DNA from: a virus
Length of the DNA stretch: 45,003 nucleotides
IMG/VR virus record: IMGVR_UViG_3300031785_000010
Location: 1 to 45,003 of that record
Reading direction: 5' to 3' (one strand)
The first letter of the stretch is position 1; each line of letters begins with the position of its first letter. This document shows, piece after piece, positions 12,539 to 42,000 of this stretch. A program made the position numbers and the translations under genes. The notes beneath the pieces are model-generated. The model was not told the DNA's origin. It saw only the letters and a program-made list of their open reading frames with translations, and did not search any database.

Positions 12539-12946
12539 ATGAACTTACCTAAAAATGGGGTAGCCCGAGACATTCGCCATTTTTTTGGCAGCCTTTTGGT
12601 GTTTGGTATGATAGTATGTATTATGTATTATTTAACACAATATGAAATACCTAATTCTAACAGAGATTTATTAACTACTCTTGTAGGTATGCTAGCGGCA
12701 TCACTTGCAATGATTATAGCGGCAATTACAGGATCTAAACCTAATGAATTAGAAGAAGCTAAAAAAAATATATCTTCATTGCAAATGAAAATAGATATGT
12801 TAGTAACACAAAAAGATTCTTTAGAAAATATGGTTATTAAACTGCAAGATGATATGATAGATCGATTACTTTTGAATAAAGCTTTAGAAGTAGATAATAA
12901 AAAATGTATTTGCGGTGAAAATAGCTGTAGTTGTAAAGGAGAATAA
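12539..12946 (+). CDS. Two-TM membrane protein with coiled coil and Cys-rich tail
   Basis: The protein has 135 residues. Hydrophobic segments at about 15-33 and 44-63 predict a membrane hairpin, followed by a charged coiled-coil region (about 70-118) and a C-terminal tail with four Cys (residues 123, 125, 130 and 132; KKCICGENSCSCKGE). Such hairpins are seen in class II holins, while a membrane anchor plus coiled coil resembles inner-membrane spanins. The Cys cluster could bind a metal or form disulfides. It lies between the fibre genes and the chaperonin cassette. A lysis role is plausible but not shown. Confidence 0.55.
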   Translation: MNLPKNGVARDIRHFFGSLLVFGMIVCIMYYLTQYEIPNSNRDLLTTLVGMLAASLAMIIAAITGSKPNELEEAKKNISSLQMKIDMLVTQKDSLENMVIKLQDDMIDRLLLNKALEVDNKKCICGENSCSCKGE

Positions 12947-12996
12947 AACCAAGTAATTATAAAATAAACCTTTATATTAATTTAAAACCAAAACCA

Positions 12997-13287
12997 ATGA
13001 CACTATTTTATCAGACTCATTCTTGGTCTAGTCAACCAAAAATTTCCAGTGAAACCCTAAAGCTTTGGAAACATATAGTAGAAAAAGCAAATTGGCGTAT
13101 CACCCAATTACCAAATGGTTTTTACCAAACTGAATACCAAGATATTATAAATGAAGATACTTGGCATGATGTAACCCGAAGAGAAACTATAGAAGGCGCA
13201 GAGCAGGCTATAGAATCTTCTATTGAACATTATAATAAAAAATTAGAATTTTTAAACGGGCCTAAAGTCGTAAAAACTTTTAACTAA
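12997..13287 (+). CDS. Hypothetical protein (96 aa)
   Basis: This 96-residue mixed alpha/beta protein begins MTLFYQTHSWSSQPKISSET and is rich in Trp and Tyr (NGFYQTEYQDI, EDTWHD). It has a helical C-terminal half. The 50-bp gap before it holds an AT-rich, A/C-containing leader without a Shine-Dalgarno sequence. No signal peptide, membrane segment or catalytic motif is visible, and no family is recognised. Its position just upstream of groEL places it in the same transcript, but no functional link can be shown. Confidence 0.5.
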   Translation: MTLFYQTHSWSSQPKISSETLKLWKHIVEKANWRITQLPNGFYQTEYQDIINEDTWHDVTRRETIEGAEQAIESSIEHYNKKLEFLNGPKVVKTFN

Positions 13288-13300
13288 ATATTTTATAACT

Positions 13301-13320
13301 TTAATTTAATTTAATTTAAT
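13301..13320 (+). repeat. Four TTAAT units directly before the groEL start codon
   Basis: Four perfect TTAAT pentamers end 1 bp before ATG 13322. They replace any Shine-Dalgarno sequence and make an unstructured AT-only leader. Repeat slippage could vary the leader length. Confidence 0.5.
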
Positions 13321-13321
13321 T

Positions 13322-14875
13322 ATGACAGACGCAATAGTCAAAGATCTTAGCTTTGGAGATGAAGCTAAAAAGAAAATATTTAAAGGTATTGATAAACTCA
13401 CAAAAGCCGTTAGTTCTACATTAGGAGCTAGCGGCAAACGTGTAATTTTAGAAGACAATACTGGTAATCCTATAATAACAAAAGATGGTGTTACCGTTGC
13501 TGATTCTATAATACTTTTAGATCCAGTAGAAAATATAGGGGCAAAACTTATTAAAGAAGCCGCTAAAAAAACAGTTAAAGAAGCAGGAGACGGAACAACT
13601 ACAGCTACTGTATTAGCATATTCTATTCTTCACCATGCTGGTAATGAGTTAAACAACTTAGGGCCAAGAAAATTAAAAGAGGGTATAGATAGCGCTGTAG
13701 AAAAAGTAATAAATTATTTAGAAAAATCTTCAGTTAAAGTTAGAGGAAAAATGATAGACCAAGTAGCGGGTATATCTACAAATAATGATACTATTTTAGG
13801 AAATATAATCGCAGACGCTTATAGATCAGTTGATGAAACGGGTGTAGTTATTATGGAAACTACAGAAAATTCTGAAACTACCTCAGAACTAATAGACGGT
13901 ATCCAATATGCAAAAGGATTAACTAATTCAAATTTTATAACTAGAAAAGATACAAGAGTAGCGGAGCTAGAAAATCCTTTAGTTTTAATTGTAGAATCTC
14001 CAATTGAAAATATTAGAAAAATTCAATCAGTATTAGAGTTTGTTATAAAAAATAATAAATCATTATTAATTATTGCTGATGTTGATCCTAAGGTTATTTC
14101 TACTTTAGCGATGAATAAAATGAAAGGTAATATTAAAATAAATATTATTAATGCACCTACTTACGGGGTATCAAAAAAAGACATGTTAAGCGATCTGGCT
14201 TTACTAACTAAAGCTACAATAGTTAATGAAGATTTAGGTGATGATATGGATTTGATTCAACCTGATTTTTTAGGGCATTGTGTAAAATCAATAACTACTG
14301 ATACAGAAACAGTTATTAAAGTAGCCGAAATAGAAGATAGCGTAAAAAGCATTATTGAAAATGTTAAATCTGAAATAAGCAATACTAAAAATACTGCAGA
14401 AATACAAAGATTAGAAAAACGATTAGCCAGATTATCGGCTAAAATAGCTACAGTTAAAGTTGGAGCAGAAACAAGTATTGAACTTCAAGAAAAAGCTGAC
14501 AGAGTAGAAGATGCAATATTTGCTACTAAAGCAGCTATTAAAGAAGGTATAGTGCCAGGCGGAGGAGTTGCTTTATTAAATGCGGCTCAAAATATAATAC
14601 CTTTAAATGAAGCAGAAAATATATTATTAGAAGCAATTAAATCTCCATATAATACAATTTTAGAAAACGCTAATTTGCCTTTAAATTATAATAATAAAAA
14701 AGGGTGGGGAGTAGATGTAATTACAGGAGAAAAAAAGAATATGACTAATTCAGGAATTATTGACCCATTATTAGTTACTAAAACTGCTTTAAAAAATGCC
14801 GCCTCTGTAGCCACCACTATTTTATCAACTGATTGTGTAATTAATAATTTAAGAACTAATGAAAGCGGTGGGTAA
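13322..14875 (+). CDS. groEL: Phage-encoded chaperonin GroEL
   Basis: This 517-residue chaperonin has the ATP-binding and hydrolysis motifs intact: IITKDGVTVADS with Asp55, EAGDGTTTATVLA with Asp90, and RVEDAIFATKAAIKEGIVPGGG with Asp397, corresponding to E. coli Asp52, Asp87 and Asp398. It is about 30 residues shorter than E. coli GroEL and lacks the C-terminal GGM tail, ending in LRTNESGG. The apical substrate groove is altered: the E. coli segment GYLSPYF is GLTNSNF here, and IREMLPVL is IRKIQSVL, so several hydrophobic contacts are replaced by polar ones. It overlaps groES by 17 nt and lies in the late region, so it probably folds capsid or tail proteins together with the phage co-chaperonin. 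Confidence 0.95.
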   Translation: MTDAIVKDLSFGDEAKKKIFKGIDKLTKAVSSTLGASGKRVILEDNTGNPIITKDGVTVADSIILLDPVENIGAKLIKEAAKKTVKEAGDGTTTATVLAYSILHHAGNELNNLGPRKLKEGIDSAVEKVINYLEKSSVKVRGKMIDQVAGISTNNDTILGNIIADAYRSVDETGVVIMETTENSETTSELIDGIQYAKGLTNSNFITRKDTRVAELENPLVLIVESPIENIRKIQSVLEFVIKNNKSLLIIADVDPKVISTLAMNKMKGNIKINIINAPTYGVSKKDMLSDLALLTKATIVNEDLGDDMDLIQPDFLGHCVKSITTDTETVIKVAEIEDSVKSIIENVKSEISNTKNTAEIQRLEKRLARLSAKIATVKVGAETSIELQEKADRVEDAIFATKAAIKEGIVPGGGVALLNAAQNIIPLNEAENILLEAIKSPYNTILENANLPLNYNNKKGWGVDVITGEKKNMTNSGIIDPLLVTKTALKNAASVATTILSTDCVINNLRTNESGG

Positions 14876-15119
14876 AAATTTAATTATACAAAAAGAAAAA
14901 CAAGGGGTTTCAAAAACCAAAGGCGGATTACTTTTAACTGAAAATAATAGAGAAGACTTAAGATATAATAAAGCAAAAGTAATTTCTACAGGCAGTGAAG
15001 TAAAAGGCGTTCAAAAAAATGATAATATTTTTTATGACAAGCATGCGGGACATGATGTTGAATATGAAAAAGAAATATTTCAAGTTATACAAGTTCAAGA
15101 TGTTGTTATTGTTTTATGA
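14859..15119 (+). CDS. groES: Phage-encoded minimal co-chaperonin GroES
   Basis: The protein has 86 residues versus about 97 in E. coli. A GroES barrel is recognisable: KAVGKNLIIQKE as the first strand, a mobile loop ending GGLLL (residues 22-26, the E. coli GGIVL contact), KAKVISTG, NDNIFYDKHAG, and a C-terminal DVVIVL strand. The roof hairpin between the ISTG strand and the NDNI strand is reduced to a few residues, so the dome opening may be wider, as reported for the T4 co-chaperonin Gp31. It starts inside groEL, and its stop overlaps the next start as ATGA. The order groEL then groES is the reverse of the usual bacterial operon. Confidence 0.9.
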   Translation: MKAVGKNLIIQKEKQGVSKTKGGLLLTENNREDLRYNKAKVISTGSEVKGVQKNDNIFYDKHAGHDVEYEKEIFQVIQVQDVVIVL

Positions 15120-15562
15120 GACAACTAACACCTGAGCAGTTAAAAAAATTAAATTTATTTAAACATTATCGCATTATAAGAAAATGGGCAAGTAGAAATA
15201 ATAATTTAAAAGAACCGGATTTAGAACTATTAATTTATTTAGATTGTATTGAATTATTTAGTAAAATAGATTTTAAAGAAGGAACTTATTCTTATAGTTG
15301 GGATAATAGAAGATGGAATAAATTATTAAAATATGGCTGGATTAAAATTTGGCGCGAAAGAAATAGAACTACACAAAAATATAATATATATAGTTTAACT
15401 TTTAAATCTAAAAGATTAATAAATACTATTTATAAAATTATATTAGGGGAAATAGATATACCTATTAGTACTAGAAGAAATAAAATTATGTTGGGTAAAA
15501 CATATACAGAAAAAGTTTTACAAAAATCAATACATAATGTAAATAAAGATAAATATAGATAA
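15116..15562 (+). CDS. Conserved phage protein, possible winged-helix fold
   Basis: This 148-residue very basic protein begins MRQLTPEQLKKLNLFKHYRI. A helical N-terminal half (RKWASRNNNLKEPDLELLIY) is followed by YSYSWDNRRWNKLLKYGWIK and a beta-like stretch TTQKYNIYSLTF, an order compatible with a winged-helix DNA-binding domain. The C-terminus has a conserved-looking KTYTEKVLQKSIHNVNKDK. Its start overlaps the groES stop as ATGA, so it is translationally coupled to the chaperonin cassette. I recall similar proteins in uncultured marine phages but cannot name a function. A regulator or DNA-binding virion protein would fit. Confidence 0.6.
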   Translation: MRQLTPEQLKKLNLFKHYRIIRKWASRNNNLKEPDLELLIYLDCIELFSKIDFKEGTYSYSWDNRRWNKLLKYGWIKIWRERNRTTQKYNIYSLTFKSKRLINTIYKIILGEIDIPISTRRNKIMLGKTYTEKVLQKSIHNVNKDKYR

Positions 15563-15563
15563 A

Positions 15564-15770
15564 ATGAGAAAAAAAACACCAGCAGTTATTAAAGCAGAAG
15601 AAGGAGTTGTCGGAGCAGAAGCACTATGGAGCGGTCCATTATCTACACAAGGATTCCCTATGGCCCCTGGGTCAAGCTCAGGTATAAAAGGAATGCAAAT
15701 AAAAAAAGCTCCTACAATGTATAAAGCCGGCCCTATTACTCAAATAGCAAAATCTGTAAGGGGCGAATAA
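15564..15770 (+). CDS. Hypothetical small protein (68 aa)
   Basis: This 68-residue Gly/Ser/Pro-rich protein begins MRKKTPAVIKAEEGVVGAEA and contains GPLSTQGFPMAPGSSSGI. It is probably disordered and has a basic C-terminus (ITQIAKSVRGE). It is spaced 1 bp from the previous stop and 1 bp from the next start, so it is packed within the operon. No signal peptide, membrane segment or motif is seen. It could be a minor virion component like its basic neighbours, but there is no direct evidence. Confidence 0.5.
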   Translation: MRKKTPAVIKAEEGVVGAEALWSGPLSTQGFPMAPGSSSGIKGMQIKKAPTMYKAGPITQIAKSVRGE

Positions 15771-16266: not shown

Positions 16267-16968
16267 ATGGACGCGACAAAGTACAATTTAAAAGAAGCCT
16301 TCGATAAGAAGCTTACAGGTAAAGCAAGATTGCATTATCTAGAAAATTATGAACACGATATGTACACCCGCAAAGGACATTCTGGTGAGTATACAGGCAA
16401 CCATCCTAAATATTCAAGAGGAGTATCAATGATGGGAAATCCTATGAACCCAATAAAAGCTATGGATGATGATTTAAAATTTATGCCAGTAGAAGATATA
16501 GCGGGACAAGGTACCGAAGGTGTAAATATGAAAAGCAATCCTATATTTCTTAAAGAAAAAGAAAATACTAAAAAACAAACGGTTGGTGGAAAAAGAAAAT
16601 TAGGAACAGAGGGTATGACTTTTGAAGAAAAAATGAAATTTTATGAAAAACAAAAAGTAGGCTCAAAATCAAAACCAAATCCTAAAATTAAAATGGGTAT
16701 TGGCACAAGCACAAGTAGCATAAGAATGGGCCATGAATCACCCACCAAAAAGGCAAAATATGGCGGTAATAAAGGTGATTTAAGCAGATCTCGTAGAGAT
16801 TTTGAAGGCCCAAGTATGATGAAAACTCCTGCTAAAATGGGACATAAGTCACCTACTAAAATGGGTCACAAGTCTCCAGCTAAAATGGGGCATAAAAGTC
16901 CTGCTAAGATGGGGCATAAGTCTCCAGCTAAAATGAAAGGTAAAGTTACCTTTGGAAGAAAAAATTAA
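16267..16968 (+). CDS. Basic protein with C-terminal KMGHKSPA octapeptide repeats
   Basis: The protein has 233 residues. The N-terminal part (about 1-60: MDATKYNLKEAFDKKLTGKA, then LHYLENYEHDMYTRKGHSGE) looks folded. The rest is Lys/Gly/Met-rich and probably disordered. The C-terminus holds four tandem KMGHKSP(A/T) octapeptides followed by KMKGKVTFGRKN, with a diverged earlier copy (RMGHESPTKK). S/T-P-x-K motifs resemble the DNA minor-groove binding units of histone H1 tails. The repeats differ at synonymous positions, so the peptide itself appears selected. A role in DNA condensation or packaging is an inference. Confidence 0.6.
   Translation: MDATKYNLKEAFDKKLTGKARLHYLENYEHDMYTRKGHSGEYTGNHPKYSRGVSMMGNPMNPIKAMDDDLKFMPVEDIAGQGTEGVNMKSNPIFLKEKENTKKQTVGGKRKLGTEGMTFEEKMKFYEKQKVGSKSKPNPKIKMGIGTSTSSIRMGHESPTKKAKYGGNKGDLSRSRRDFEGPSMMKTPAKMGHKSPTKMGHKSPAKMGHKSPAKMGHKSPAKMKGKVTFGRKN
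16834..16929 (+). repeat. Four 24-bp tandem repeats encoding KMGHKSP(A/T)
   Basis: Units start at 16834, 16858, 16882 and 16906 and are in frame. They vary at third codon positions (for example GGA, GGT and GGG for Gly) but almost never in amino acids. The only change is T or A in the last position. Confidence 0.85.
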
Positions 16969-17315: not shown

Positions 17316-17468
17316 ATGAAATCTATTGGTCTTGGTGATGACATACATAAATTTACTACTAAGACTGGTATTAAGTCAATAGTAGACAGAGTCAGCGAGG
17401 GATTAAATATCCCTTGCGGCTGTGCTGCTAGACAAGAATGGTTTAATAAAAAATTTCCTTATAAATAA
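17316..17468 (+). CDS. Hypothetical small protein with CGC motif (50 aa)
   Basis: A frame from ATG 17316 to TAA 17466-17468 encodes 50 residues: MKSIGLGDDIHKFTTKTGIK, followed by a segment with NIPCGCAARQEWFNKKFPYK at the end. The CGCAARQEW-NKKFPYK ending resembles short phage proteins I have seen elsewhere. The two Cys in CGC could bind metal. The gene starts 2 bp after the previous stop and ends 1 bp before the metallopeptidase start, so it is embedded in the operon. Function unknown. Confidence 0.55.
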   Translation: MKSIGLGDDIHKFTTKTGIKSIVDRVSEGLNIPCGCAARQEWFNKKFPYK

Positions 17469-17469
17469 A

Positions 17470-17775
17470 ATGGGATTTAAACTACCGCCGCCTCCTTATA
17501 AAAAATTAGGAGTACCTATTTATCTTCAAGATTTAGGAGATGATACATTAGGTAAAGCTAATAATAATGAAACTATTTTAATTAATAGTAAATTAGATCC
17601 ATCAGAAAGAGGTAGTGTTATTAAACATGAAATGGTACATATAGACCAATTTCGTAGAGGTGATTTAGATTATGATGGAAAAAATGTATATTGGAAAGGA
17701 AAAGTATATCCAAGAAATAAAATGAAAGAAGGTGCTAAAAATTTACCTTGGGAAAAAGAAGCATATAATGTATAA
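17470..17775 (+). CDS. Small zinc metallopeptidase-like protein (HExxH)
   Basis: The chosen start at ATG 17470 lies directly after the preceding stop. An in-frame ATG at 17422 would overlap that gene by 47 nt and is less likely. The 101-residue product has VIKHEMVHIDQFRRGDLDYD with the zinc-binding HEMVH at residues 53-57, and downstream NLPWEKEAYNV supplies Glu95 or Glu97 as a possible third ligand. The N-terminus is Pro-rich (MGFKLPPPPYKKLGV). It is much shorter than typical secreted proteases and has no signal peptide. Adjacent to a holin-like gene, it might act on the envelope or on virion proteins. The zincin assignment is firm by motif; the substrate is unknown. Confidence 0.65.
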   Translation: MGFKLPPPPYKKLGVPIYLQDLGDDTLGKANNNETILINSKLDPSERGSVIKHEMVHIDQFRRGDLDYDGKNVYWKGKVYPRNKMKEGAKNLPWEKEAYNV

Positions 17776-17779
17776 TTAA

Positions 17780-18160
17780 ATGTTAAAATTTATATTAGGA
17801 CTTTTAAAAGGCGGAAACGGCCGTAAGTCTGCAGCGGGCAATTTAGCCTGGGAAATAAGAGAAGCTATTAAGGGGAAAGAATTAGATCCTAACGAGCTTA
17901 TATCTATTCAAACAAAAATAAATGAAATTGAAGCTGGGCATAGAACAGTTTTTGTCGCGGGCTGGAGACCCTTCATAGGGTGGGTATGCGGAGTAGCATT
18001 AGCTTATAATTTTGTTATAAGAGATTTATTTATTTGGATTACAAAAACAGCAGATGCTCCCCCTGCTTTACAAATGGAGCATTTAATGACCGTATTACTA
18101 GGGATGCTAGGCTTAGGCGGATTAAGAACATTTGAAAAAGTAAAAGATAAAACAAAATAA
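17780..18160 (+). CDS. Holin-like protein, GTA/3TM holin family
   Basis: The protein has 126 residues. A hydrophobic N-terminal segment (MLKFILGLLKGG) is followed by an acidic helical stretch. Then comes AGWRPFIGWVCGVALAYNFV (residues 60-79), a second part IRDLFIWI, and LMTVLLGMLGLGGLRTFEKV (residues 102-121). The GWRPFIGW and LGMLGLGGLRT-EK motifs are what I associate with the 3TM holin family (GTA_holin_3TM). Holins permeabilise the inner membrane to time lysis. It follows the small metallopeptidase by 4 bp and precedes a putative virion protein by 1 bp. Confidence 0.75.
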   Translation: MLKFILGLLKGGNGRKSAAGNLAWEIREAIKGKELDPNELISIQTKINEIEAGHRTVFVAGWRPFIGWVCGVALAYNFVIRDLFIWITKTADAPPALQMEHLMTVLLGMLGLGGLRTFEKVKDKTK

Positions 18161-19043: not shown

Positions 19044-19266
19044 TATTATAAGAAAAATCAGTATTGGTTCTGACTATAAAAATGATGCTATGCATTACTC
19101 CTTAGGACAAGAGGTCTACGGGGGTCATAAAATAGCTTACATCATATTTGACGATTCTGATAATTCTTATAATATTCATATTAAAAAAAATAAAGAAGTA
19201 TTACCATGGAAAAAATTTAATAGCAATATGGCCGTTTCCGTAGAATACAATTTAGAATATGAATAG
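19036..19266 (+). CDS. Conserved hypothetical protein (76 aa)
   Basis: The start chosen is ATG 19036, which gives an 8-nt overlap with the preceding gene. An in-frame ATG at 18973 would add a Lys-rich extension encoded entirely inside the previous gene. The 76-residue protein begins MSSIIRKISIGSDYKNDAMH and has a beta-rich middle (YGGHKIAYIIFDDSDNSYNI). I recall similar short proteins next to terminases in uncultured marine phages. No catalytic motif is visible. It overlaps the tandem GroES-like gene by 8 nt. Confidence 0.6.
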   Translation: MSSIIRKISIGSDYKNDAMHYSLGQEVYGGHKIAYIIFDDSDNSYNIHIKKNKEVLPWKKFNSNMAVSVEYNLEYE

Positions 19267-19864
19267 CATTTATGATTTTATTGTTGAGCCAATAGGTGAA
19301 AGATATAATAATAAAAAAGCTATAGGTAAAAAATCTTTAATTTTAAATACAAGTATTGAATCATTTAAATTTATTAATAAACAAGCTAAAGTAATTGCTA
19401 TTCCTCTAGCATATAAAACTCCAATAAATGTAGGAGATAAAATAATAATTCATCATAATGTTTTTAGACGTTATTATGATATAAGAGGACAAGAAAAAAA
19501 TAGCAGTAAGTATTTAAATGAAGATCAATATTTTTGTCAAATAGACCAAATTTATTTATATAACAATAATAATAAATGGCATACTTTTGGCGATAGATGT
19601 TTTGTTAAACCTTTAGTAAATAAAGACAATTTAAAGCTTCAAAAATTACAAGATCATATTGGTATATTAAAATATGACAATAGCTCTTTAAACAAGCTTA
19701 AAATTAAGACTGGAGACTGTGTGGGATTTACACCTAATTCAGAATTTGAATTTTTAATTGAAAATGAGTTTTTATATTGTATGAAATCTAATGATATTGT
19801 AATTAAATATGAACACCAAAAAAACAAAACTGAATATAATCCAAGCTGGGCAGAAAGCGGTTGA
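19259..19864 (+). CDS. Tandem GroES-like (double co-chaperonin fold) protein
   Basis: This 201-residue protein appears to contain two GroES-type barrels. Domain 1 (about 5-102) has DFIVEPIGER, a loop ending KKSLIL, KQAKVIAIP, INVGDKIIIHHNVF and YFCQIDQIYLY. Domain 2 (about 108-185) has GDRCFVKPL, DHIGILKY, LKIKTGDCVGFTPN and FEFLIENEFLYCMKSNDIVI. Both follow the GroES order: first strand with V-P, loop, a strand like KVIA, then V-GD-V, then a final D-I-v strand. Chloroplast Cpn20 is a known tandem GroES protein. It lies upstream of the terminase rather than in the groEL/groES cassette and overlaps both neighbours. It may be a second co-chaperonin, or a virion protein built on the same fold. 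Confidence 0.6.
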   Translation: MNSIYDFIVEPIGERYNNKKAIGKKSLILNTSIESFKFINKQAKVIAIPLAYKTPINVGDKIIIHHNVFRRYYDIRGQEKNSSKYLNEDQYFCQIDQIYLYNNNNKWHTFGDRCFVKPLVNKDNLKLQKLQDHIGILKYDNSSLNKLKIKTGDCVGFTPNSEFEFLIENEFLYCMKSNDIVIKYEHQKNKTEYNPSWAESG

Positions 19865-20081
19865 GGAATTAATTAAAGTTGCAGAAGAAGAAATTATAGT
19901 AAATGATGCTTCAGAAGATTTGGCTGCGGATAGACTTAAAAATGCAGCAGCAACTAAAAAATTAGCAATTTTTGATGCTTTTGAAATATTAACAAGAATT
20001 GAAACTGAAAAAAATTTATTAGAAGAAATAACATCTAATAAATCAAAATTTGGAGGGTTTGCTGAAAAAAGAGCTAAATAA
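19809..20081 (+). CDS. Small helical protein, candidate small terminase subunit
   Basis: This 90-residue protein begins MNTKKTKLNIIQAGQKAVEE and is mostly helical, with a basic end (KFGGFAEKRAK). It overlaps the preceding gene by 56 nt and the large terminase by one base (TAATG). Location directly before terL, small size, and the helical DRLKNAAATKKLAIFDAFEI stretch are compatible with a small terminase subunit that recognises packaging sites. No clear helix-turn-helix is visible, so the assignment is positional. Confidence 0.5.
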   Translation: MNTKKTKLNIIQAGQKAVEELIKVAEEEIIVNDASEDLAADRLKNAAATKKLAIFDAFEILTRIETEKNLLEEITSNKSKFGGFAEKRAK

Positions 20082-22300
20082 TGTATAAGCAGAATTTATA
20101 TAAAATATTAGATAATTATATTAAGCCTAATATTTTAAAAAAATATAATAAAACTAAAAAGTGGCTATACGGGTATAATAAAGAACATGATATTGTTATT
20201 ATTAGCAAAACAGGCCAAATAGGTGAAATTTATGAAATAGAAAATTTAAAAATTGCACTGCCTTTAACAACAACAGTTTATAAAAGATCTAATAAAATAA
20301 AAGAACAATATTGGGAAAAATTAGAATATCCTAAATCTTTACAAAAAATTAAAACTGTATTTGATTGGAATAATTATCCTGATAGCTTTAAAGAGCAATG
20401 GTACGATTATATTGATAATGAATTTAAACGACGAGATGAGGGATTTGTCTTTTTTAATAATGGAAAAGCTACTTATATTACTGGTTCTCATTATATGTAC
20501 TTGCAGTGGACTAAAATTGACGTTGGTGCTGCTGAATTTCGCGAGTCCAACCGTTTATTCTACATATTTTGGGAAGCTTGCAAAGCCGATTCCAGATGTT
20601 ATGGTATCTGCTACCTCAAAAATAGACGGTCTGGATTTAGTTTCATGGCGTCGTCCGAACTTGTTAACCAAGCAACCGTATCAAGTGATTCCCGATTCGG
20701 GATACTTTCAAAGACAGGGGCTGACGCTAAAAAAATGTTCACGGACAAAGTTGTCCCAATCAGTGTTAATTACCCCTTCTTTTTCAAGCCCGTGCAAGAC
20801 GGAATGGATCGCCCCAAAACAGAGCTTGCTTACCGAGTTCCCGCCTCCAAATTAACTCGGCGCAAGATAGAAATAGGCGAACAGTTACAAGATATTGACG
20901 GGCTTGATACTACTATTGATTGGAAAAATACTGGGGACAATTCATATGATGGGGAAAAATTAAAATTGTTAGCTCATGACGAATCCGGTAAATGGGAAAA
21001 GCCAGATAATATAATTAATAATTGGAGAGTTACAAAAACAACATTAAGACTAGGGAGTAGAATAGTTGGAAAATGTATGATGGGTTCAACTTCTAATAGT
21101 TTAGATAAAGGAGGCTCTAATTTTAAAAAAATATATGATAATTCAAATGTCCGAAACCGAAATCGTAATGGCCAGACTCGCTCGGGATTATATTCTTTGT
21201 TCATTCCTATGGAATGGAATTACGAGGGATTCATTAATTTGTATGGATTACCTGTCTTCGATACCCCTATTAGACCTGTCAGAAGCATCGACGGAAGTAT
21301 TATTGAGGTAGGGGTAATTGATCATTGGATTAATGAAGTTGATGGTTTAAAAGCAGATCAAGATGCTTTAAATGAGTTTTATAGGCAATTTCCTAGAACT
21401 ACTCAACATGCGTTTAGAGATGAAACTAAAGAATCCTTATTTAATCTAACAAAAATTTATGAGCAGATTGATTATATTGAAGAAACTAAAAATGATAATT
21501 TAATCTCACAAGGTAATTTTCAATGGCTAGGTGGTGTTAAAGATACTTCTGTAATGTTTGTACCTAATAATAATGGCCGATTTTTAATTAGTTGGGTGCC
21601 TCCTATGCATTTGCAAAATAAAATGATATTAAAAAATAATTTAAAATACCCAGCAAATGATCATATAGGTGCTTTCGGGTGTGATAGTTATGATATATCA
21701 GGCACAGTAGATGGAAGAGGATCTAAAGGGGCTTTGCACGGGCTAACTAAATTTACTATGGAAAATGTTCCTATAAATATGTTTTTTTTAGAATATATAT
21801 CAAGGCCTGATAATACAGAAATATTTTTTGAGGATGTTTTAATGGCAATTGTTTTTTATGGCATGCCTATATTAGCTGAAAATAATAAACCGCGATTACT
21901 ATATTATTTAAAACGAAGAGGTTATAGAGGGTATTCAATGAATAGACCCGATAAATTAAAAAATAAATTATCTATAACAGAAAAAGAAATAGGTGGTATT
22001 CCAAATTCAAGTGAAGATATGAAACAAGCTCATGCCGCGGCTATTGAATCTTATATAGATGAAAATATAGGTTTTAAAAATGATTCATATGGTAATATGC
22101 CTTTTTTAAGAACATTAAATGATTGGTCTAAATTTAATTTAAACAATAGAACTAAACATGATGCCTCTATAAGTTCAGGGCTTGCAATTATGGCCTGTAA
22201 TAAAAATAAATACGCTCCTGTAGCTAAAAAAATTTTTAAACCTGTAAATTTAGGTATTAAAAAATATAATAATGAAGGATATACTTCAAAACTAATATAA
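20081..22300 (+). CDS. terL: Terminase large subunit
   Basis: The protein has 739 residues. The ATPase half has a Walker A-like KNRRSGFS (180-187), a Walker B LKLLAHDE with Asp300 and catalytic Glu301, and a coupling motif GKCMMGSTSNS (330-340). The nuclease half has an RNase H-like core with IGAFGCDSYDISGT (Asp535), ILAENN (Glu600) and TKHDASISSGLAIMA (Asp694). It packages DNA into procapsids through the portal encoded next, which starts 4 bp after its stop. The Walker A lacks the usual GK[ST] and has Arg and Gly-Phe-Ser instead. Positions 20521-20880 are about 46% G+C by hand count, far above adjacent parts of the gene, suggesting mosaic origin. Confidence 0.95.
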   Translation: MYKQNLYKILDNYIKPNILKKYNKTKKWLYGYNKEHDIVIISKTGQIGEIYEIENLKIALPLTTTVYKRSNKIKEQYWEKLEYPKSLQKIKTVFDWNNYPDSFKEQWYDYIDNEFKRRDEGFVFFNNGKATYITGSHYMYLQWTKIDVGAAEFRESNRLFYIFWEACKADSRCYGICYLKNRRSGFSFMASSELVNQATVSSDSRFGILSKTGADAKKMFTDKVVPISVNYPFFFKPVQDGMDRPKTELAYRVPASKLTRRKIEIGEQLQDIDGLDTTIDWKNTGDNSYDGEKLKLLAHDESGKWEKPDNIINNWRVTKTTLRLGSRIVGKCMMGSTSNSLDKGGSNFKKIYDNSNVRNRNRNGQTRSGLYSLFIPMEWNYEGFINLYGLPVFDTPIRPVRSIDGSIIEVGVIDHWINEVDGLKADQDALNEFYRQFPRTTQHAFRDETKESLFNLTKIYEQIDYIEETKNDNLISQGNFQWLGGVKDTSVMFVPNNNGRFLISWVPPMHLQNKMILKNNLKYPANDHIGAFGCDSYDISGTVDGRGSKGALHGLTKFTMENVPINMFFLEYISRPDNTEIFFEDVLMAIVFYGMPILAENNKPRLLYYLKRRGYRGYSMNRPDKLKNKLSITEKEIGGIPNSSEDMKQAHAAAIESYIDENIGFKNDSYGNMPFLRTLNDWSKFNLNNRTKHDASISSGLAIMACNKNKYAPVAKKIFKPVNLGIKKYNNEGYTSKLI

Positions 22301-22304
22301 ATAA

Positions 22305-24719
22305 ATGGTTTATACAAATTATAACAGTTCATTCCCAGATCAGGTAGTACCAGACGCAGTAAAGAACAGTTATGAATATGGGCTGCAAGTTGCGCAAGCT
22401 ATTGAAAATGAATGGTTTAATCAGGATTATAGTGGAGATAGGTATTTGCAAAACTTTCAAAATTTTCATAGATTACGTTTATATGCGCGAGGTGAGCAAC
22501 CAATACAAAAATATAAAGATGAATTATCTATAAATGGAGATTTATCTTATTTAAATTTAGATTGGAAAATTGTACCAATTTTACCAAAATTTGTAGATAT
22601 TATAGTTAATGGCATGACTGACAAAGGTTATGAAATTAAATCTTTTGCTACAGACCCTTTCGCTTTAAAAAAACGAACCGATTTTGTTTTTAATGCAATA
22701 AGAGATATACGTAATAAAGAATTAATTGAGCAATTAAATCAAATAATGCAAACTAATTTATTCGCTAGCGCTAATATTAATGATTTACCGGAAAGCGAAG
22801 AAGAATTAGAATTATATACTCAATTAAATTATAAACAAAGTGCAGAAGTAGCTGAAGAAGAGCTAATAAATAATGTTTTTGATTATAATAAATATAATGA
22901 AATTAAAAGAAGATTAGCCTATGATTTAGCTGTTATAGGAATAGGTGCATCTAAAACAAATTTTAATTTATCTGAAGGAGTTACAGTAGATTATGTAGAC
23001 CCCGCATCTATGGTTTATTCTTACACTGAAGATCCAAACTTTAATGATATTTATTATGTTGGCGAAGTTAAAAATTTAAGTATATCTGAAGTAAAAAGAT
23101 TATTCCCTGAGCTTACTGATTCAGAATTAAAAGAAATACAAAAATATAAAGGGCCGGCTAGTTACAGTAATTATGTAAAAAATTATGGTGGACAAGATGA
23201 CTATAATTTAATTCCTATATTATTTTTTGAATATAAAACATATACTAATCAAGTTTTTAAAATTAAAAAAACTGATCAGGGATTAGAAAAAACCATAGAA
23301 AAAGATGATACTTTTAATCCACCAGAAAATGAAAACTTTAATAAAGTAGCGAGGAGTATTGAAGTCCTATATACAGGTGCAAAGGTTTTAGGCATGAGCA
23401 AAGTTATTAAATGGCAATTGTCTGAAAATATGACACGACCCTACGGGGATGTTACTAAAGTTAATATGAATTATAGTATTTGTGCTCCTCGAATGTATAA
23501 AGGAAGAATTGAATCTTTAGTAAGCCGTATTACTAGTTTTGCGGATATGATTCAATTAACTCACTTAAAATTACAACAAGTTCTCGCTAGAGTAGTTCCT
23601 GATGGGGTTTATTTAGATATGGATGGCCTTGCCGAAGTAGATTTAGGTAATGGAACAAATTATAATCCTACCGAAGCACTTAATATGTATTTTCAAACCG
23701 GTAGTATTGTCGGTAGATCTTTAACACAAGACGGTGAATTAAATAGAGGCAAAGTGCCTATACAAGAATTGCAGTCATCAAGTGGTTTAGCTAAAATTCA
23801 ATCATTAATACAAACGTATCAATATTATTTACAAATGATAAGAGATACAACAGGATTAAATGAAGCAGTAGATGGTAGCACTCCTGATAAAAATGCATTA
23901 GTTGGATTACAAAAAATAGCTGCTGCAAATTCTAATACAGCTACGCGGCATGTACTAAAAGCTTTAATGTACATAACTATACGTACTGCAGAAAATATTA
24001 GTTTGCGCGTAAATGACGCTTTAAATTTTCCTTTAACAAAAGAAGCATTGCTTAATAGTATTAATACATTTAATGTAAAAACACTAGAAGAGCTAGAAGA
24101 AATTAGTTTACATGATTTTGGCATTTTTTTAGAATTAGAGCCCGATGCTGAAGAAAAAAACCAACTTGAACAAAATATTCAAATAGCTTTAAAAGCAGGA
24201 GGTATTAATTTAGAAGATGCTATTGATATTAGAGAAATTAGTAATATTAAATTAGCTAATCAATTACTAAAATTAAAGCGTAAGCAAAAAATTAAAAAAG
24301 ATCAAGAAATTACACAAGCTAATATTCAAGCTCAAGCGCAAGCAAATGCCAAAGCATCTGAGGCAGCTGCTTTAGCGGAAGTTCAAAAACAACAAGCTTT
24401 AGCAGAAACTAAAGTACAAATTGAAAAAGCAAAATCAGATTTTGAAATTAATAGAATGGAGCAAGAATCATTAATTAAAAAAGAATTAATGGCCCAAGAA
24501 TTTCAATATAATATACAATTAGCTCAAGCGCGAGCGCAAAATGAAACTACAAGAGAAAAAGAAATTGAAGATAGAAAAGATGAAAGAGTTCGAATACAAG
24601 GAACTCAACAATCTGAACTTATAGATCAAAGAAAAAATGATCTTTTACCTAAAAATTTTGAATCTGCAGGATTTGATAATTTAGATGGGTTTGGCTTAGA
24701 ACAATTTGAGCCGAGATAA
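22305..24719 (+). CDS. Portal protein
   Basis: This 804-residue protein follows the large terminase by 4 bp. The N-terminal two-thirds show the portal pattern: LNLDWKIVPILPKFVDIIVN (about residues 84-103), YDLAVIGIGASKTNFNLSEG, YVDPASMVYSY and ESLVSRITSFADMIQLTHLK. The last 160 residues form a long Gln/Ala/Lys-rich coiled coil (QAQAQANAKASEAAALAEVQ). Size and order match portals of crAss-like and related podoviruses, which are unusually long. It would form the dodecameric DNA channel at one capsid vertex. The C-terminal coiled coil may be the tunnel or barrel extension. Confidence 0.85.
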   Translation: MVYTNYNSSFPDQVVPDAVKNSYEYGLQVAQAIENEWFNQDYSGDRYLQNFQNFHRLRLYARGEQPIQKYKDELSINGDLSYLNLDWKIVPILPKFVDIIVNGMTDKGYEIKSFATDPFALKKRTDFVFNAIRDIRNKELIEQLNQIMQTNLFASANINDLPESEEELELYTQLNYKQSAEVAEEELINNVFDYNKYNEIKRRLAYDLAVIGIGASKTNFNLSEGVTVDYVDPASMVYSYTEDPNFNDIYYVGEVKNLSISEVKRLFPELTDSELKEIQKYKGPASYSNYVKNYGGQDDYNLIPILFFEYKTYTNQVFKIKKTDQGLEKTIEKDDTFNPPENENFNKVARSIEVLYTGAKVLGMSKVIKWQLSENMTRPYGDVTKVNMNYSICAPRMYKGRIESLVSRITSFADMIQLTHLKLQQVLARVVPDGVYLDMDGLAEVDLGNGTNYNPTEALNMYFQTGSIVGRSLTQDGELNRGKVPIQELQSSSGLAKIQSLIQTYQYYLQMIRDTTGLNEAVDGSTPDKNALVGLQKIAAANSNTATRHVLKALMYITIRTAENISLRVNDALNFPLTKEALLNSINTFNVKTLEELEEISLHDFGIFLELEPDAEEKNQLEQNIQIALKAGGINLEDAIDIREISNIKLANQLLKLKRKQKIKKDQEITQANIQAQAQANAKASEAAALAEVQKQQALAETKVQIEKAKSDFEINRMEQESLIKKELMAQEFQYNIQLAQARAQNETTREKEIEDRKDERVRIQGTQQSELIDQRKNDLLPKNFESAGFDNLDGFGLEQFEPR

Positions 24720-25967: not shown

Positions 25968-27434
25968 ATGGCAAACGTAGCTCCCCAATTTGGGGCAATT
26001 AAACCGAGTGCTAAACAGCAAGTTCTGTCAACTAACTTTATCCAATTTACGGATAGTGGTACTGCAGCAACTTTTTCTGATTTTGCACAACAATATCTTC
26101 CTGAGATCTACGAACAAGAAGTAGAACGATATGGAAATAGAACACTTTCTGGTTTCTTACGTATGGTAGGAGCAGAAATGCCTATGACTTCTGATCAGGT
26201 TATTTGGTCAGAGCAAAATAGATTGCACGTAGCTTACAACGATGTAAGCAAAGCTGCAAATAATACAGATTTAACTTTTACATTAAATGCAACTTTAGGG
26301 CCAGATTTTGTTGATAACAACATTTCTATAAATGATACATTAGTTGTTATGAATCCGGCTACTGGAGCAGAAGTAAAAGCTTTAGTTACTAATAGTGTAG
26401 GTACTGTAGCAGGCGGTAATGCAACCGCTACAATTACTGTAGCTACTTATACTGGAGCCAATTTATCTACTACTTTAGGTTCTGCTGGTAATGTATTAGC
26501 CGGTCTTAAAATATTTGTTTATGGTTCAGAATATCGTAAAGGAACAGGGGATACTGATATTAAAAGCATTACTCCAATTTTAACTCAATTTAGCAATCAA
26601 CCAATAATTATTAAAGATAGATATGAAATTAATGGTTCAGATATGGCTCAAATTGGTTGGATTGAAGTTGCTACTGAAGACGGAACTTCTGGTTACTTAT
26701 GGTATTTAAAAGCTGAATCTGAAACAAGATTAAGATTTGAAGATTATTTAGAAATGGCAATGGTAGAAGGTGAAGTACCTGCTGCTGGATCTGGAGTTGC
26801 TGGTCTTGCTCCTATTAGACAAGGAACAGAAGGATTATTTTCTGCTATTAATTCAAGAGGTAATGTATTAAATAATTTTAGTGCAGCCGCTGGATTAGGA
26901 GAGTTTGATAGTATTTTGAAAAATTTAGATACTCAAGGCGCTATTGAAGAAAATATGCTTTTCTTAAATCGAAGTACTTCATTAGATATTGATGATATGC
27001 TAGCAAGTATTTCTACGGGAATGCAAGGTGGTACAGCTTTTGGATTATTTGAAAACTCAGAAGAAATGGCTTTAAATCTTGGATTTAGTGGTTTCCGTAG
27101 AGGATCATATGATTTTTATAAAACTGATTGGAAATATTTAAATGATGCATCTACTCGTGGAGCTGTAGCAGTTTCGTCAATAGACGGGGTTCTTATTCCC
27201 GCTGGTACATCAACTGTATATGATCAAATATTAGGGTCTAATATAAGAAGGCCTTTCTTACACGTTCGATACAGAGCTTCTCAAACAGAAGATAGACGTA
27301 TGAAATCTTGGATAACAGGTTCTGCTGGGGGCGCATTTACTACAGATGTTGACTCGATGGTTGTACATTTTTTATCTGAAAGATGTTTGTGTGTACAAGG
27401 TGCTAATAACTTTGTATTATTTACATCTTCGTAG
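25968..27434 (+). CDS. Major capsid protein
   Basis: The 488-residue protein begins MANVAPQFGAIKPSAKQQVL and has FAQQYLPEIYEQEVERYGNR (about 39-58), SDQVIWSEQNRLHVAY, and a C-terminal region with LHVRYRASQTEDRRMKSWIT. The balanced composition, length and position after portal and scaffold, followed by a strong terminator, fit the HK97-fold capsid of crAss-like-type phages. The gene starts after an A-only leader and is likely expressed at a high level. Its fold cannot be proven from sequence alone here. It is the best capsid candidate and a likely client of the phage chaperonin. Confidence 0.85.
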   Translation: MANVAPQFGAIKPSAKQQVLSTNFIQFTDSGTAATFSDFAQQYLPEIYEQEVERYGNRTLSGFLRMVGAEMPMTSDQVIWSEQNRLHVAYNDVSKAANNTDLTFTLNATLGPDFVDNNISINDTLVVMNPATGAEVKALVTNSVGTVAGGNATATITVATYTGANLSTTLGSAGNVLAGLKIFVYGSEYRKGTGDTDIKSITPILTQFSNQPIIIKDRYEINGSDMAQIGWIEVATEDGTSGYLWYLKAESETRLRFEDYLEMAMVEGEVPAAGSGVAGLAPIRQGTEGLFSAINSRGNVLNNFSAAAGLGEFDSILKNLDTQGAIEENMLFLNRSTSLDIDDMLASISTGMQGGTAFGLFENSEEMALNLGFSGFRRGSYDFYKTDWKYLNDASTRGAVAVSSIDGVLIPAGTSTVYDQILGSNIRRPFLHVRYRASQTEDRRMKSWITGSAGGAFTTDVDSMVVHFLSERCLCVQGANNFVLFTSS

Positions 27435-34820: not shown

Positions 34821-36350
34821 ATGAGTGCAATAGTAGAAGTAAGATATTTTAACAGCTTTGTTTTAAAAAAAGTAGTTGATTCGGGTAATACACCTGTTTG
34901 GAATGGATCATATGGTATACCAAATTATAATCCAGGAGAAACTGGTGTAAGTTCTTATGGGACTATAACGCCTCAAACTAATAATGAAACGCGAAACTGG
35001 ATGATTGAAGAATCGCGTATACGAGGTGGTTATAATAATACTAGTACAACATTCGGCCCAAGAGCTTATTTAGTCGAAGAAGAGCCAAGCGCTAGGTTTA
35101 GAGGCCATGCATTAATTTATTCTGGAATTTTTAATTCAACAACTGGAATTAATGAAAGTAATGTTTTTAGCGTAGGAGAAGATATAACTAAAAGTTTAGA
35201 TCCCGCTAAAGGAACAATACAAAAATTATACGCAGAAGATTATTATTTAAATATATTTCAAGAAGATAAAGTAAGCCGCGCGCCTATTAATAAAAATATA
35301 ATCTATAGTGCTGAGGGAAATCCAACTGTTACAACTAGTAATATGGTAATAGGTGAACCTCAAGCTTATAACGGCGAATTTGGCATCAGTCGAAACCCAG
35401 AAAGTTTTGCTCAATACGGATTCAGAAAATATTTTACTGATAAGGATAGAAATGCTGTGATGAGATTATCTAGAGATGGTTTAGAAGAAATTCAACGCTA
35501 TGGAATGTATGATTTTTTTAGAGATAAGCTAAGCGGATTAGACAGCCAATACGGCTTAGGAAGAGCTTTCGGAATGTGGGATATACATACTAAACAATAT
35601 GTTCTTTCATTACAACCAAATCAACCTTATACAGTTAGCCCAACAGGCGAAAATATAACAGCAGAATATTATACTACATCTTTCGATGAATCTGTTAAAG
35701 GTTGGACTAGTTTTTATAGTTATGAACCAGCTATGGGCACTAGTTTAAAAAATATTTTTTATACTTTTAATAATGGTACTAGTTCTGTTAAACAAGCACA
35801 GTTATATAGACATAATAGCGAATCAGTTAATAGGGCTAATTTTTACGGGGTACAATATAAAGCAAGTATAAAATTTATATTTAATCCAGAAATTAGTGCT
35901 TCAAAAGTTTTTAAAACTATTAATTACGAAGGAAGTAACGGCTGGCAAGTAGATAAAATTATATCAGATAAAACAGGTATTGGATCAATTGACACAGGAT
36001 GGGAAACAACCTCAACGGGTCAAAATTTTGATAAATCTGATACTAATGACAGCATAGCTTTAATATATAGCTATAATGAAGGGGCGTATGATAATTTTGG
36101 AAATCAGTTTCCAGCATTAATGACTCCGCCTATAAATAGAGCAGGGTTTGATAGAAAAGAAAATAAGTATTTTGCAAATATAGTTAATAACAGTCCCGCT
36201 ACCTCAGGTGAAGTTAGGTTTGGTAATCAAATAACAGGTATAAAAGGATATTTTACAACTGTAACAATATCAACTGATACCAACACAGATCCAGGAGGTA
36301 TGAAAGAAATATTTGCTGTATCTTCACAATATAACGTAGCATCTTATTGA
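34821..36350 (+). CDS. Tail protein companion to the stabilisation protein (509 aa)
   Basis: This 509-residue beta-rich protein contains ARFRGHALIYSGIFNSTTGI, YFTDKDRNAVMRLSRDGLEE and GRAFGMWDIHTKQYVLSLQP. I associate the TDKxRxAVxRLSxDGL pattern with the C-terminal region of crAss-like tail stabilisation proteins, which suggests that one ancestral protein is split into this and the preceding gene. A 34-bp AT-rich gap without a Shine-Dalgarno sequence separates them. It is likely part of the tail hub or a spike. No enzymatic motif is visible. Confidence 0.55.
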   Translation: MSAIVEVRYFNSFVLKKVVDSGNTPVWNGSYGIPNYNPGETGVSSYGTITPQTNNETRNWMIEESRIRGGYNNTSTTFGPRAYLVEEEPSARFRGHALIYSGIFNSTTGINESNVFSVGEDITKSLDPAKGTIQKLYAEDYYLNIFQEDKVSRAPINKNIIYSAEGNPTVTTSNMVIGEPQAYNGEFGISRNPESFAQYGFRKYFTDKDRNAVMRLSRDGLEEIQRYGMYDFFRDKLSGLDSQYGLGRAFGMWDIHTKQYVLSLQPNQPYTVSPTGENITAEYYTTSFDESVKGWTSFYSYEPAMGTSLKNIFYTFNNGTSSVKQAQLYRHNSESVNRANFYGVQYKASIKFIFNPEISASKVFKTINYEGSNGWQVDKIISDKTGIGSIDTGWETTSTGQNFDKSDTNDSIALIYSYNEGAYDNFGNQFPALMTPPINRAGFDRKENKYFANIVNNSPATSGEVRFGNQITGIKGYFTTVTISTDTNTDPGGMKEIFAVSSQYNVASY

Positions 36351-39017: not shown

Positions 39018-42000
39018 ATGCCTCTATATAAATCAAATGGTATTACTTATGATCTGCCGCCCGAGCAGGTGGCGAGATTTAAAATGTTAAACCCAGAAGC
39101 AATTTTGTTAGAAGAAAAACAAATTGTAGAAGTGGAAAAGACAAACCCTTCGCAGGAGACAAAGAGTGCGGCTGTGAAGGAAAATGTTGCACTCAAACCC
39201 GCCATTACGGATTCCATGTTGGAAGATATTTCTTTGGAATTACCAAAAAATAGTATAAGAAAAAAAGTTCGGCAACAAGATTTAGAAAGAATTAAATTAA
39301 AAAAAGATGAAGACCGCACTATAAATGATAATACAGATTATTTATCTGAATTATTAAAAGCTGGCGATTTATCGTTAGGAGAAGCAATTTTTAGTATTCC
39401 TGGATTTTTATATGGCGTTACTAAAGATTATACTCCTATAGGTATTGCAGCTCAAAAAATTAATGAGTTAATGGATTTGCCGCCTATGTGGTCAACGAAA
39501 GAATTTAATGAAAAAATTAATGCTCAACCTATAATTGAATCATTAATAGAAGAAAGAGAAGACCGTTTAAAAAAAGTACAAAATTTCCAACAACAAAGAG
39601 ATTTACAAAACGATATATTAGAAAATTTAGATGGCACAGCAGAAGGATATAAAAAAGCAGCTTTAGTAACTGCAGGGCAATTAGCTCAAAGTTTGCCTAC
39701 AACTGCTGCTATTATGGCCGGGGGTGTTGCTGGGCTTGGTAGGCTAGGAATGATGGCTGGCACAACAACGCTTTTAGGCGGGCCTGAAGCTAGACAACAA
39801 GCAATAGAAAATCCTGAACAATCAGAAGCTATAAATACACTAAAAGGATTAGGTATGGCAGCGGCTGAAGGCTTTTTTGAAAGTTTAATGGGGGCTGGCG
39901 CTATAGGAAATGTATATAAAGATATTATATTTAGAGAAGGCCCTGAGGTTGGTCAAAGAGTATTTAAAAATTGGTTGGTAGAATCTTATGAAACAGCTTT
40001 AAAAAAATTAGGTATTCCCGTGGCTATGGTTGGCGAAGGCACAGAAGAAGTAGCAACACAGATTACGCAAAATTTAATTAATAATAAAGACCCTTTTGAA
40101 GGTGTAAGTAATGCTTTTATATTAGGTGTTGCTGGCGGAGGTGCATATGGCGCGCCTATAAATATTGTAAAAATTAGAAACGGAATTAAAGATGCAATGG
40201 TTTTATCTAAAATTAATAAAGATTTAAAACCAACTGAATATACAAATATTAGTTATGCATTTGATCCAATAAATATTGCCGATCAAGCTCAAGTAAATAT
40301 TGCACAAATTAAAGGAGCAGATAAAATATTAAATGATAAAGTTAATAGAGAAGTTTTAGGAGGTAGAATAACTAAAGCCAAAGGAGAAGAAATAAAATTA
40401 AATTTTAGAGCAACACAACAAGCGACTAGCCAAATAAAAAATATAGCTTTTAATAATGCACAAAAAGTTGAGGCTGTTGAGTTATTAAAAAGAGGTAATG
40501 CTTTAACAAATCAAATTAAAGAACAAGATAATGAAGGTCTTAATCGGCCACTAATAGGAGAATTAAAAAATATAAATGAAAGATTAAATACTTTAGCATT
40601 AGACGCTCAAACAGGAACAATTACTAAAGCCATAAAAGGAAAAAATATTATTCGAGCTAAAAATAGTGAAGAATTAAAAAATAAATATAATATTACAAAT
40701 AAGCAGGCCCTAACAGCGGGGGCTTTTGTAAATCCAGCCGATAATAAAATATATATTAATGAAGAAGTAGCTGTTGAAACGGGGGACATAGATGTTGCAC
40801 AACACGAGTTGCTACATGTAATTCTGCAAGATCAATTTAAAAGTGCAAAAGATAAAGGTAAAAATTTAATAGAAGAATTTAAAAATATTGTAGGCAAAGA
40901 AAATTCAAAAATCGTTGATGATATAATTAAAAATGAACCTGCATATGATGAAAATTATATGCGAAATAACCCTGATGAATTTTTAACTCAGTTTAGTAAT
41001 GCTGTTTTAGAAGATAGAGTTAATTATAATGAAACAATATTTACTAAAATAAAAGATTTTTTACAAAAAATTTTTGGTTCTAAAGGTTTTAAAAGTAAAT
41101 TTAAAACAGGTAAAGACGTATATAATTTTATGCGTAATTATTCTCAAAATATTAAACAAGGTGAATTATCTACAAAGGTTTTAAAATTAGTTCCAGAAGA
41201 AATACAGGTTGATGATGTTGTAATGTCAAAAAAGGCATCAGAAAAAGTACAAAAATTATATGAAGAAAAAGGTCCTGATGAAGCCGCTTTTGAAATAATA
41301 CAAGAATTTAAACCTATAACTTTAGATTTAACCCGTAAAAGAAGAAATGCCCCTAATTATAATGAAGAAGAATTAGTAAGTGAAATAGAAACTGGTAAAG
41401 GTGGTATTTTTGATTTAATTAGAAGTTATAAAAAAGATTCGGGGGTTCCGCTAGCTGCATATATAAATAGTTTATTACCAAAAAGAACTATTGCTGCGTC
41501 TAAAAGAGTTTTAGGCGAAGAGTTTACCGCTGATATAGCCGATGTACAGATAGCTGAAACACAAGCGACTGAGCCAGAAGTTATTGAAACCGCTGTTCAA
41601 GAAGAGCTGCCAAAAATTAAAATAGCTGAAAGAATTTTTACGCCTGAAGAACAAACAAAACTAAAAGAAAAAGTTAGTCAGGAGCTTCCAAATATCACAG
41701 AGGAACAATTAACTTTTAAAACCTTACCTAACTTAACAGCAGAAGTTATTGCTGAAAAGTTAAATATGCCCGCTAAAAAACTTACAGGCGCTGCTAATTT
41801 TACGCAAGATGAGTTTGGTCGTGTACAACAATTTATAAAAGATAATATTAAAACTGTTAAACTTGCTTTACCGCAAGCGGCTGTATTAGAAGGCGAAGCT
41901 GTAAGTGAAGAGTTAATAGGTACTGCAACTAATGTGCCAAATAAATTATTAAAAAATCCTAAGCTATATACCAGATTAGAAAGAACTACAAAAAAAGCCG

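Follow-up and report, generated by a model that had tools for sequence, protein, structure and literature searches.

Phage genes for GroEL and GroES tend to be classed as auxiliary copies of the host's own. The locus described here raises the question of whether its chaperonin is such a copy or, as a preliminary description suggested, one specialised for phage clients such as the capsid protein. We analysed the whole of virus record IMGVR_UViG_3300031785_000010, a stretch of 45,003 bases (hereafter the window), in which the chaperonin genes sit among structural, lysis and packaging genes. We assign a probability of roughly two thirds to the reading that they encode a complete group I chaperonin system of the phage, passed on by vertical descent, which comprises a GroEL ring, a short GroES lid and a tandem double-Cpn10 protein. 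The features concerned are as follows.

13322..14875, + strand: groEL, group I chaperonin of 517 aa, with Y203N and L234Q in E. coli numbering
14859..15119, + strand: groES, co-chaperonin of 86 aa, starting within the last codons of groEL (17-bp overlap)
19259..19864, + strand: tandem co-chaperonin-like protein of 201 aa, with two predicted Cpn10-like domains (residues 1-103 and 106-187)
20081..22300, + strand: terminase large subunit (context); in 80/80 relatives the tandem co-chaperonin gene immediately precedes it
22305..24719, + strand: portal protein (context)
25968..27434, + strand: virion structural protein of 52.7 kDa, a candidate major capsid protein and candidate client judging by its position, size and PHROG class

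The best relatives of the terminase are those of Manatee Spring podovirus ctfjg026 (62% identity) and Flavobacterium elemovirus (44%), followed by those of Maribacter phage Panino (41%) and of Cellulophaga phages (37-38%). From these relatives, the host is likely to belong to the Flavobacteriia. The window also holds a 233-aa protein with MGHKSPAK repeats at its C-terminal end (16267-16968) and, between groES and the tandem gene, lysis genes (17422-18160), namely a GTG-start open reading frame, whose metallopeptidase-like match (DUF6782/M78) is weak and below cut-off, and a holin gene (phrog_3427) after it. The product of 34821-36350 (509 aa) carries a Crassvirus muzzle C-terminal domain (PF25729, 51.5 bits), which links this podovirus group to crAss-like tail parts. 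A 1995-aa open reading frame (39018-45002) runs past the end of the window, which is thus an incomplete genome.

The groEL product matches Pfam Cpn60_TCP1 with 195.9 bits against a cut-off of 34.3, and its PHROG match is unambiguous as well. It passes the subfamily models NF009487 and NF000592 and scores 444.4 bits against the 582.1 required by the NCBI equivalog for cellular GroEL, TIGR02348, so that by this score it is a divergent GroEL member rather than an equivalog. Its identity to bacterial GroELs is 38-41%, with 38% to E. coli GroEL by BLASTP. The AlphaFold2 model (pLDDT 84.6) adopts the three-domain GroEL fold throughout and superimposes on E. coli GroEL (5opw_A) with a Z of 42.7 and an r.m.s.d. 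of 3.0 over 507 residues. The three ATPase aspartates that had been reported as kept (Asp55, Asp90 and Asp397) correspond to E. coli D52, D87 and D398 and are indeed invariant in 171/171 aligned GroELs. Together with GDGTTT, T30, G32 and G414-G416, they are identical in the window and in 80/80 relatives.

Other parts of the protein depart from the cellular form. The GGM tail is missing in 80/80 phage GroELs, the D83-K327 pair, R197 and K277 are altered, and the ring-ring interface loops near 426-436 and 465-469 are shortened. The window protein has N, P, N and Y in place of E. coli R452, E461, S463 and V464, which we take to be the four positions mutated in the single-ring variant SR1. Since all four are substituted, a single-ring GroEL is possible on these sequence grounds. 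The net charge of the apical domain shows no clear difference between groups.

To describe the apical groove, we used a MAFFT alignment of 171 GroELs, comprising 80 from the window and near phage relatives (viral contigs), 10 from other phages and 81 from cells; the cellular set consists of E. coli GroEL plus the phage protein's 80 nearest cellular matches, many of them from Flavobacteriia. Residues are numbered as in E. coli GroEL with Met as 1. The eight classical groove sites, Y199, Y203, F204, L234, L237, L259, V263 and V264, are among the mapped substrate- or GroES-binding residues (PMC7289027), and Y203 and V264 touch non-native Rubisco in a cryoEM structure (PMC10723157). The preliminary description had aligned GYLSPYF with GLTNSNF and Leu234 with Gln by hand. 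Both assignments are correct, as BLASTP, a six-sequence MAFFT alignment and the 171-sequence alignment agree on them. Its two own objections, that the residues might be misaligned or equally polar in hosts, were both examined and the observation stood: the three concordant alignments have no gaps near 199-204 or 234, and the groove is apolar in 81/81 cellular GroELs, Flavobacteriia included.

The claim that several groove positions had become polar holds for 203 (N) and 234 (Q) and fails for the remaining six of the eight, which are still apolar. The window residues are 199 L, 203 N, 204 F, 234 Q, 237 L, 259 I, 263 A and 264 M. Among the 80 phage GroELs, site 203 is H in 58, N in 21 and S in 1, compared with Y in 81/81 cellular sequences, and site 234 is Q in 79 and V in 1, compared with L, I, M or V in all 81. 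Elsewhere in the groove of the phage group, 199 is mostly L, F204 and L237 are invariant, 259 is mostly L or I, 263 is mostly A and 264 is always M. In another 28 GroELs, which were retrieved by way of the adjacent tandem gene and hence not selected by GroEL sequence, 203 is H or N in 27 and 234 is Q in 27. The changes at Y203 and L234 are therefore a lineage trait, fixed in the phage group and absent from hosts.

Side-chain hydrophobicity summed over the eight sites is 11.3 in cells (10.8-12.1) but 8.1 in the phage group, with 7.7 for the window protein; the phage groove is less apolar, at two sites, without being emptied. Across the protein, 169 positions are apolar in cells; 11 of these have turned polar in the phage group, and the groove accounts for two. 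This loss is not significantly concentrated there (2/8 groove versus 9/161 other sites, p = 0.087), so that the groove change is fixed yet not demonstrably targeted.

The partner of the ring has changed as well. The groES product matches Pfam Cpn10 with 43.1 bits (cut-off 21.1), again with an unambiguous PHROG match. The hydrophobic mobile loop is kept, with the pattern GGL[LI]L and, in the window, the sequence T-K-G-G-L-L-L. Residue 25 is Leu in 81/81 phage GroESs (Ile in 58/68 cellular ones), residue 27 is Leu in 80/81, residue 28 is not the Pro of cells, and residue 31, which is Ala in cells, is mostly Gln or His. The phage sequences have a gap of ~9 columns relative to E. coli GroES where the roof β-hairpin would lie. 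The same hairpin is absent from the phage T4 co-chaperonin gp31, which lacks roof loops (PMC6318259), and it is thus not defining for the GroES/Cpn10 fold.

These results bear on a plausible, if tentative, alternative in which the groove changes mainly re-pair GroEL with its own GroES, with the tandem lid or with both, making it independent of host GroES while the client range is not narrowed. GroEL L234, L237 and N265 touch GroES I25, I26, L27 and A31 (PMC7289027), so that L234Q is accounted for by re-pairing with a lid no less well than by client choice. The changes at GroES residues 25, 28 and 31 point the same way, as does a 234 that is altered in almost every phage lineage with EL-ES order. 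However, Tyr203, which directly contacts non-native substrate in the Rubisco complex, has changed too, and elemovirus retains L234 despite encoding its own GroES.

The order of the two genes, described earlier as reversed, is so throughout the group: groEL precedes groES in 81/81 phage loci, and groES precedes groEL in 69/69 cellular loci in which groES was located. The phage genes are adjacent in 81/81 cases and overlap by 17, 20 or 23 bp in 78/81. The EL-ES order is thus a trait of the phage group and not peculiar to the window genome. It is shared by elemovirus, Panino and ctfjg026, and the ES-EL order is found in immuto, SJC03 and Pervagoviridae. A sigma-70 and terminator scan of 12900-15600 returned no more than shuffled background.

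The ancestry of the locus argues against a generic or recent copy of a host gene. In a maximum-likelihood tree, the phage GroELs form one clade (100/99) outside all bacterial GroELs and far from those of Bacteroidota, next to the GroELs of ctfjg026, elemovirus and Panino (88/88); long branches limit the deeper joins. On this phylogeny the phage GroEL is an old clade, and a recent capture of host groEL is ruled out. The suggestion that the gene is no generic host copy is borne out by this tree and by groove changes that are fixed and absent from hosts.

Capture of a host groEL for chaperonin dosage, followed by neutral drift of the groove, is very improbable. The overall identity to bacterial GroELs noted above would allow it, and such captures do happen in phages: the GroEL of Bacteroides phage SJC03 (MT074146), labelled 'hypothetical protein', nests among those of Bacteroidota. 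The separate clade speaks against it, as do a Q234 that stays nearly invariant at 62-88% protein identity and a dN/dS of about 0.1 for the gene. GroEL-positive records labelled as 'Listeria', 'Salmonella' or 'Acinetobacter' phages (e.g. AGRM01000005, OR848861) resemble bacterial sequence and were left out of the analysis.

Against near relatives, dN/dS is 0.08-0.12 for groEL, 0.09-0.17 for groES and 0.13-0.27 for the tandem gene, and all three are under purifying selection and strongly constrained. Their pairwise divergences are correlated over 61 loci (r 0.80-0.84, Mantel p 0.0005), as co-inheritance predicts.

The third member of the set, at 19259-19864, was not remarked on in the preliminary description. 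Its product matches PHROG 13932 'co-chaperonin GroES' over its full length (E 9.7e-23) and on its own stays under the Pfam Cpn10 cut-off (15.4 versus 21.1). The AlphaFold2 model, built from an alignment of 30 relatives, has two domains and a pLDDT of 79, with low values mainly at two putative mobile loops and the tail. Foldseek returned a single PDB match with E < 0.001, 7ekq_R, to which the model aligns in VIA-align with a Z of 10.2 over 159 residues (1-185), well above other chains; sequence identity to this nearest solved chain is 14%. The entry is titled CrClpP-S2c, and its chain R has 194 residues, a length at which it should be one of the tandem co-chaperonins. The Chlamydomonas ClpP complex has been reported with CPN11, CPN20 and CPN23 (PMC8889267).

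The two halves differ in how readily they are recognised. The C half is Cpn10-like by sequence profile (E 3e-7 in profile comparison), its model matches GroES with a Z of 7.3, and the C half of the homologue gp096 of Cellulophaga phage phi18:3 matches a cellular GroES profile (iE 4e-6). The N half (1-103) has no usable profile match to the C half or to GroES, and its model resembles T4 gp31 (Z 6.8) and GroES 2c7c (Z 6.5). Searches of PDB chains with the whole protein gave no match for the single sequence and, for the profile, only weak, unrelated ones with no Cpn10. The protein is thus predicted to comprise two Cpn10 domains in tandem, the N-terminal one by its model only and not by sequence. 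Putative mobile-loop motifs are kept in both halves, [LIV]-[IV]-[LV]-N-T at ~27-31 and G-I-L-K at 135-138.

In 80/80 relatives the tandem gene immediately precedes the terminase gene, on the same strand and no more than 1.5 kb away, and 20/20 tandem-gene contigs with at least 9.9 kb upstream carry groEL as well as groES. Together, these data establish the presence, conservation, gene order, co-occurrence, purifying selection and predicted folds of the chaperonin set. Related and named phages label the tandem protein 'cpn10', 'co-chaperonin GroES' or hypothetical. We found no paper on a tandem phage lid in the literature searched, which excludes the viral-chaperonin survey of Marine et al. 2017 (ISME J). 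Phage GroEL and GroES are already known; what is unexpected at this locus is the double lid, more than the groove change.

The invariable position next to the terminase would also suit a protein of head assembly or packaging that uses a GroES-like fold, as would the presence of a tandem-type protein in a phage that has no GroEL. We consider this unlikely, since an apolar motif is kept in both halves at the equivalent of the GroES mobile loop and the model comes closest to a chain from the complex of Chlamydomonas ClpP with its co-chaperonins. The GroEL-less phage itself is informative: phi18:3 (KC821620, a complete Cellulophaga phage) encodes an 84-aa cpn10 and a 200-aa tandem-type cpn10 adjoining the terminase, and an HMM search of the whole record gave no GroEL. 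Its 200-aa cpn10 (gp096) is not among the virion proteins labelled from MS/MS in the record, which, with the missing GroEL, favours a lid for host GroEL, the role that gp31 has in T4, over a virion part.

Several known systems can be set beside that of the window. Elemovirus, Pervagoviridae (phi38:1, phi40:1, Calle), Panino and ctfjg026 likewise have groEL with groES nearby, all carry a relative of the tandem protein, and their terminases are 37-62% identical to that of the window. The GroELs of the Flavobacteriia phages are nevertheless only about 36-41% identical to the window protein. Pervagoviridae have one gene between groES and groEL, and each phage lineage has its own substitution at 203. 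GroELs of marine 'group 2' Bacteroidetes phages (Nishimura et al. 2017, PMC5332604) are among the closest known, and the GroEL of phi38:1 has been detected by mass spectrometry in infected Cellulophaga (PMC13288928).

With E. coli and Bacteroidota GroEL/GroES, the window proteins share the fold, the nucleotide pocket, the mobile loop and most groove residues. They differ in the absence of Y203, L234, the GGM tail, the D83-K327 pair and the GroES roof hairpin, in the reversed gene order and in the shorter ring-ring interface loops. Phage T4 offers a co-chaperonin whose lack of roof loops recalls the small GroES of the window, and phi18:3 resembles T4 in having lids without a GroEL, whereas the window phage encodes a GroEL of its own and a tandem lid besides the small one. 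The GroEL homologue encoded by Pseudomonas phage EL, gp146, likewise has an altered groove, but its identity to GroEL is just 22%, its cleft is narrowed and it lacks a co-chaperonin (PMC7185714); with its canonical fold, its lids, a groES that overlaps groEL and an identity of 38% to the E. coli protein, the window chaperonin is not EL-type. Chloroplast Cpn20 also has two head-to-tail Cpn10 domains and occurs alongside a single-domain Cpn10, although the N half of the phage protein is recognisable by predicted structure only.

For a vertically inherited set of ring and two lids, the GroEL ring would most likely run the canonical ATP-driven cycle, in which clients are captured on the apical groove, a lid then binds through its hydrophobic mobile loop, and folding inside is followed by release. 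The groove retains its apolar core of F204, L237, I259, A263 and M264, and N203 and Q234 may tune it to the phage's own lid or lids and to a narrower set of phage clients. Both this specificity for partners and clients and the way in which the two lids are used are what we infer from the comparisons above. Since the set is co-inherited, constrained and located among structural, lysis and packaging genes, its most likely task is the folding of proteins that are made late and in abundance; those it folds are probably encoded by the phage itself. The likeliest clients would be structural proteins of this kind, for instance the capsid candidate of ~53 kDa, and by analogy with T4 gp23 (~56 kDa) and gp31, the protein encoded at 25968 is a natural suspect.

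As for the lids, CPN20/23 and a Cpn10-type subunit of the Chlamydomonas chloroplast form rings of seven GroES-like domains, which cap Cpn60 (PMC5780408). One might speculate, by analogy, that one 86-aa and three 201-aa subunits make up seven domains in the phage (1 + 3x2 = 7). A fuller version of this idea, which we regard as doubtful, is a composite lid of one GroES and three tandem subunits, convergent with the chloroplast CPN10/CPN20 lid. It would sit on a GroEL with a remodelled groove, possibly a single ring, that is devoted to head proteins, and the same lid pair would capture host GroEL in GroEL-less relatives such as phi18:3.

In summary, a ring, a lid and a double-domain lid are inherited together over a large group of marine phages. 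Of the two fixed changes at mapped groove positions, one affects a substrate-contact residue (203) and the other a GroES contact (234). The group has cultured relatives in Flavobacterium elemovirus, Cellulophaga phi38:1 and the GroEL-less phi18:3, so that narrowing of the client range and re-pairing with the lid can be told apart directly by specific point mutations. The occurrence of a tandem Cpn10 beyond plastids would also bear on how a lid with an even number of domains fits a seven-fold ring.
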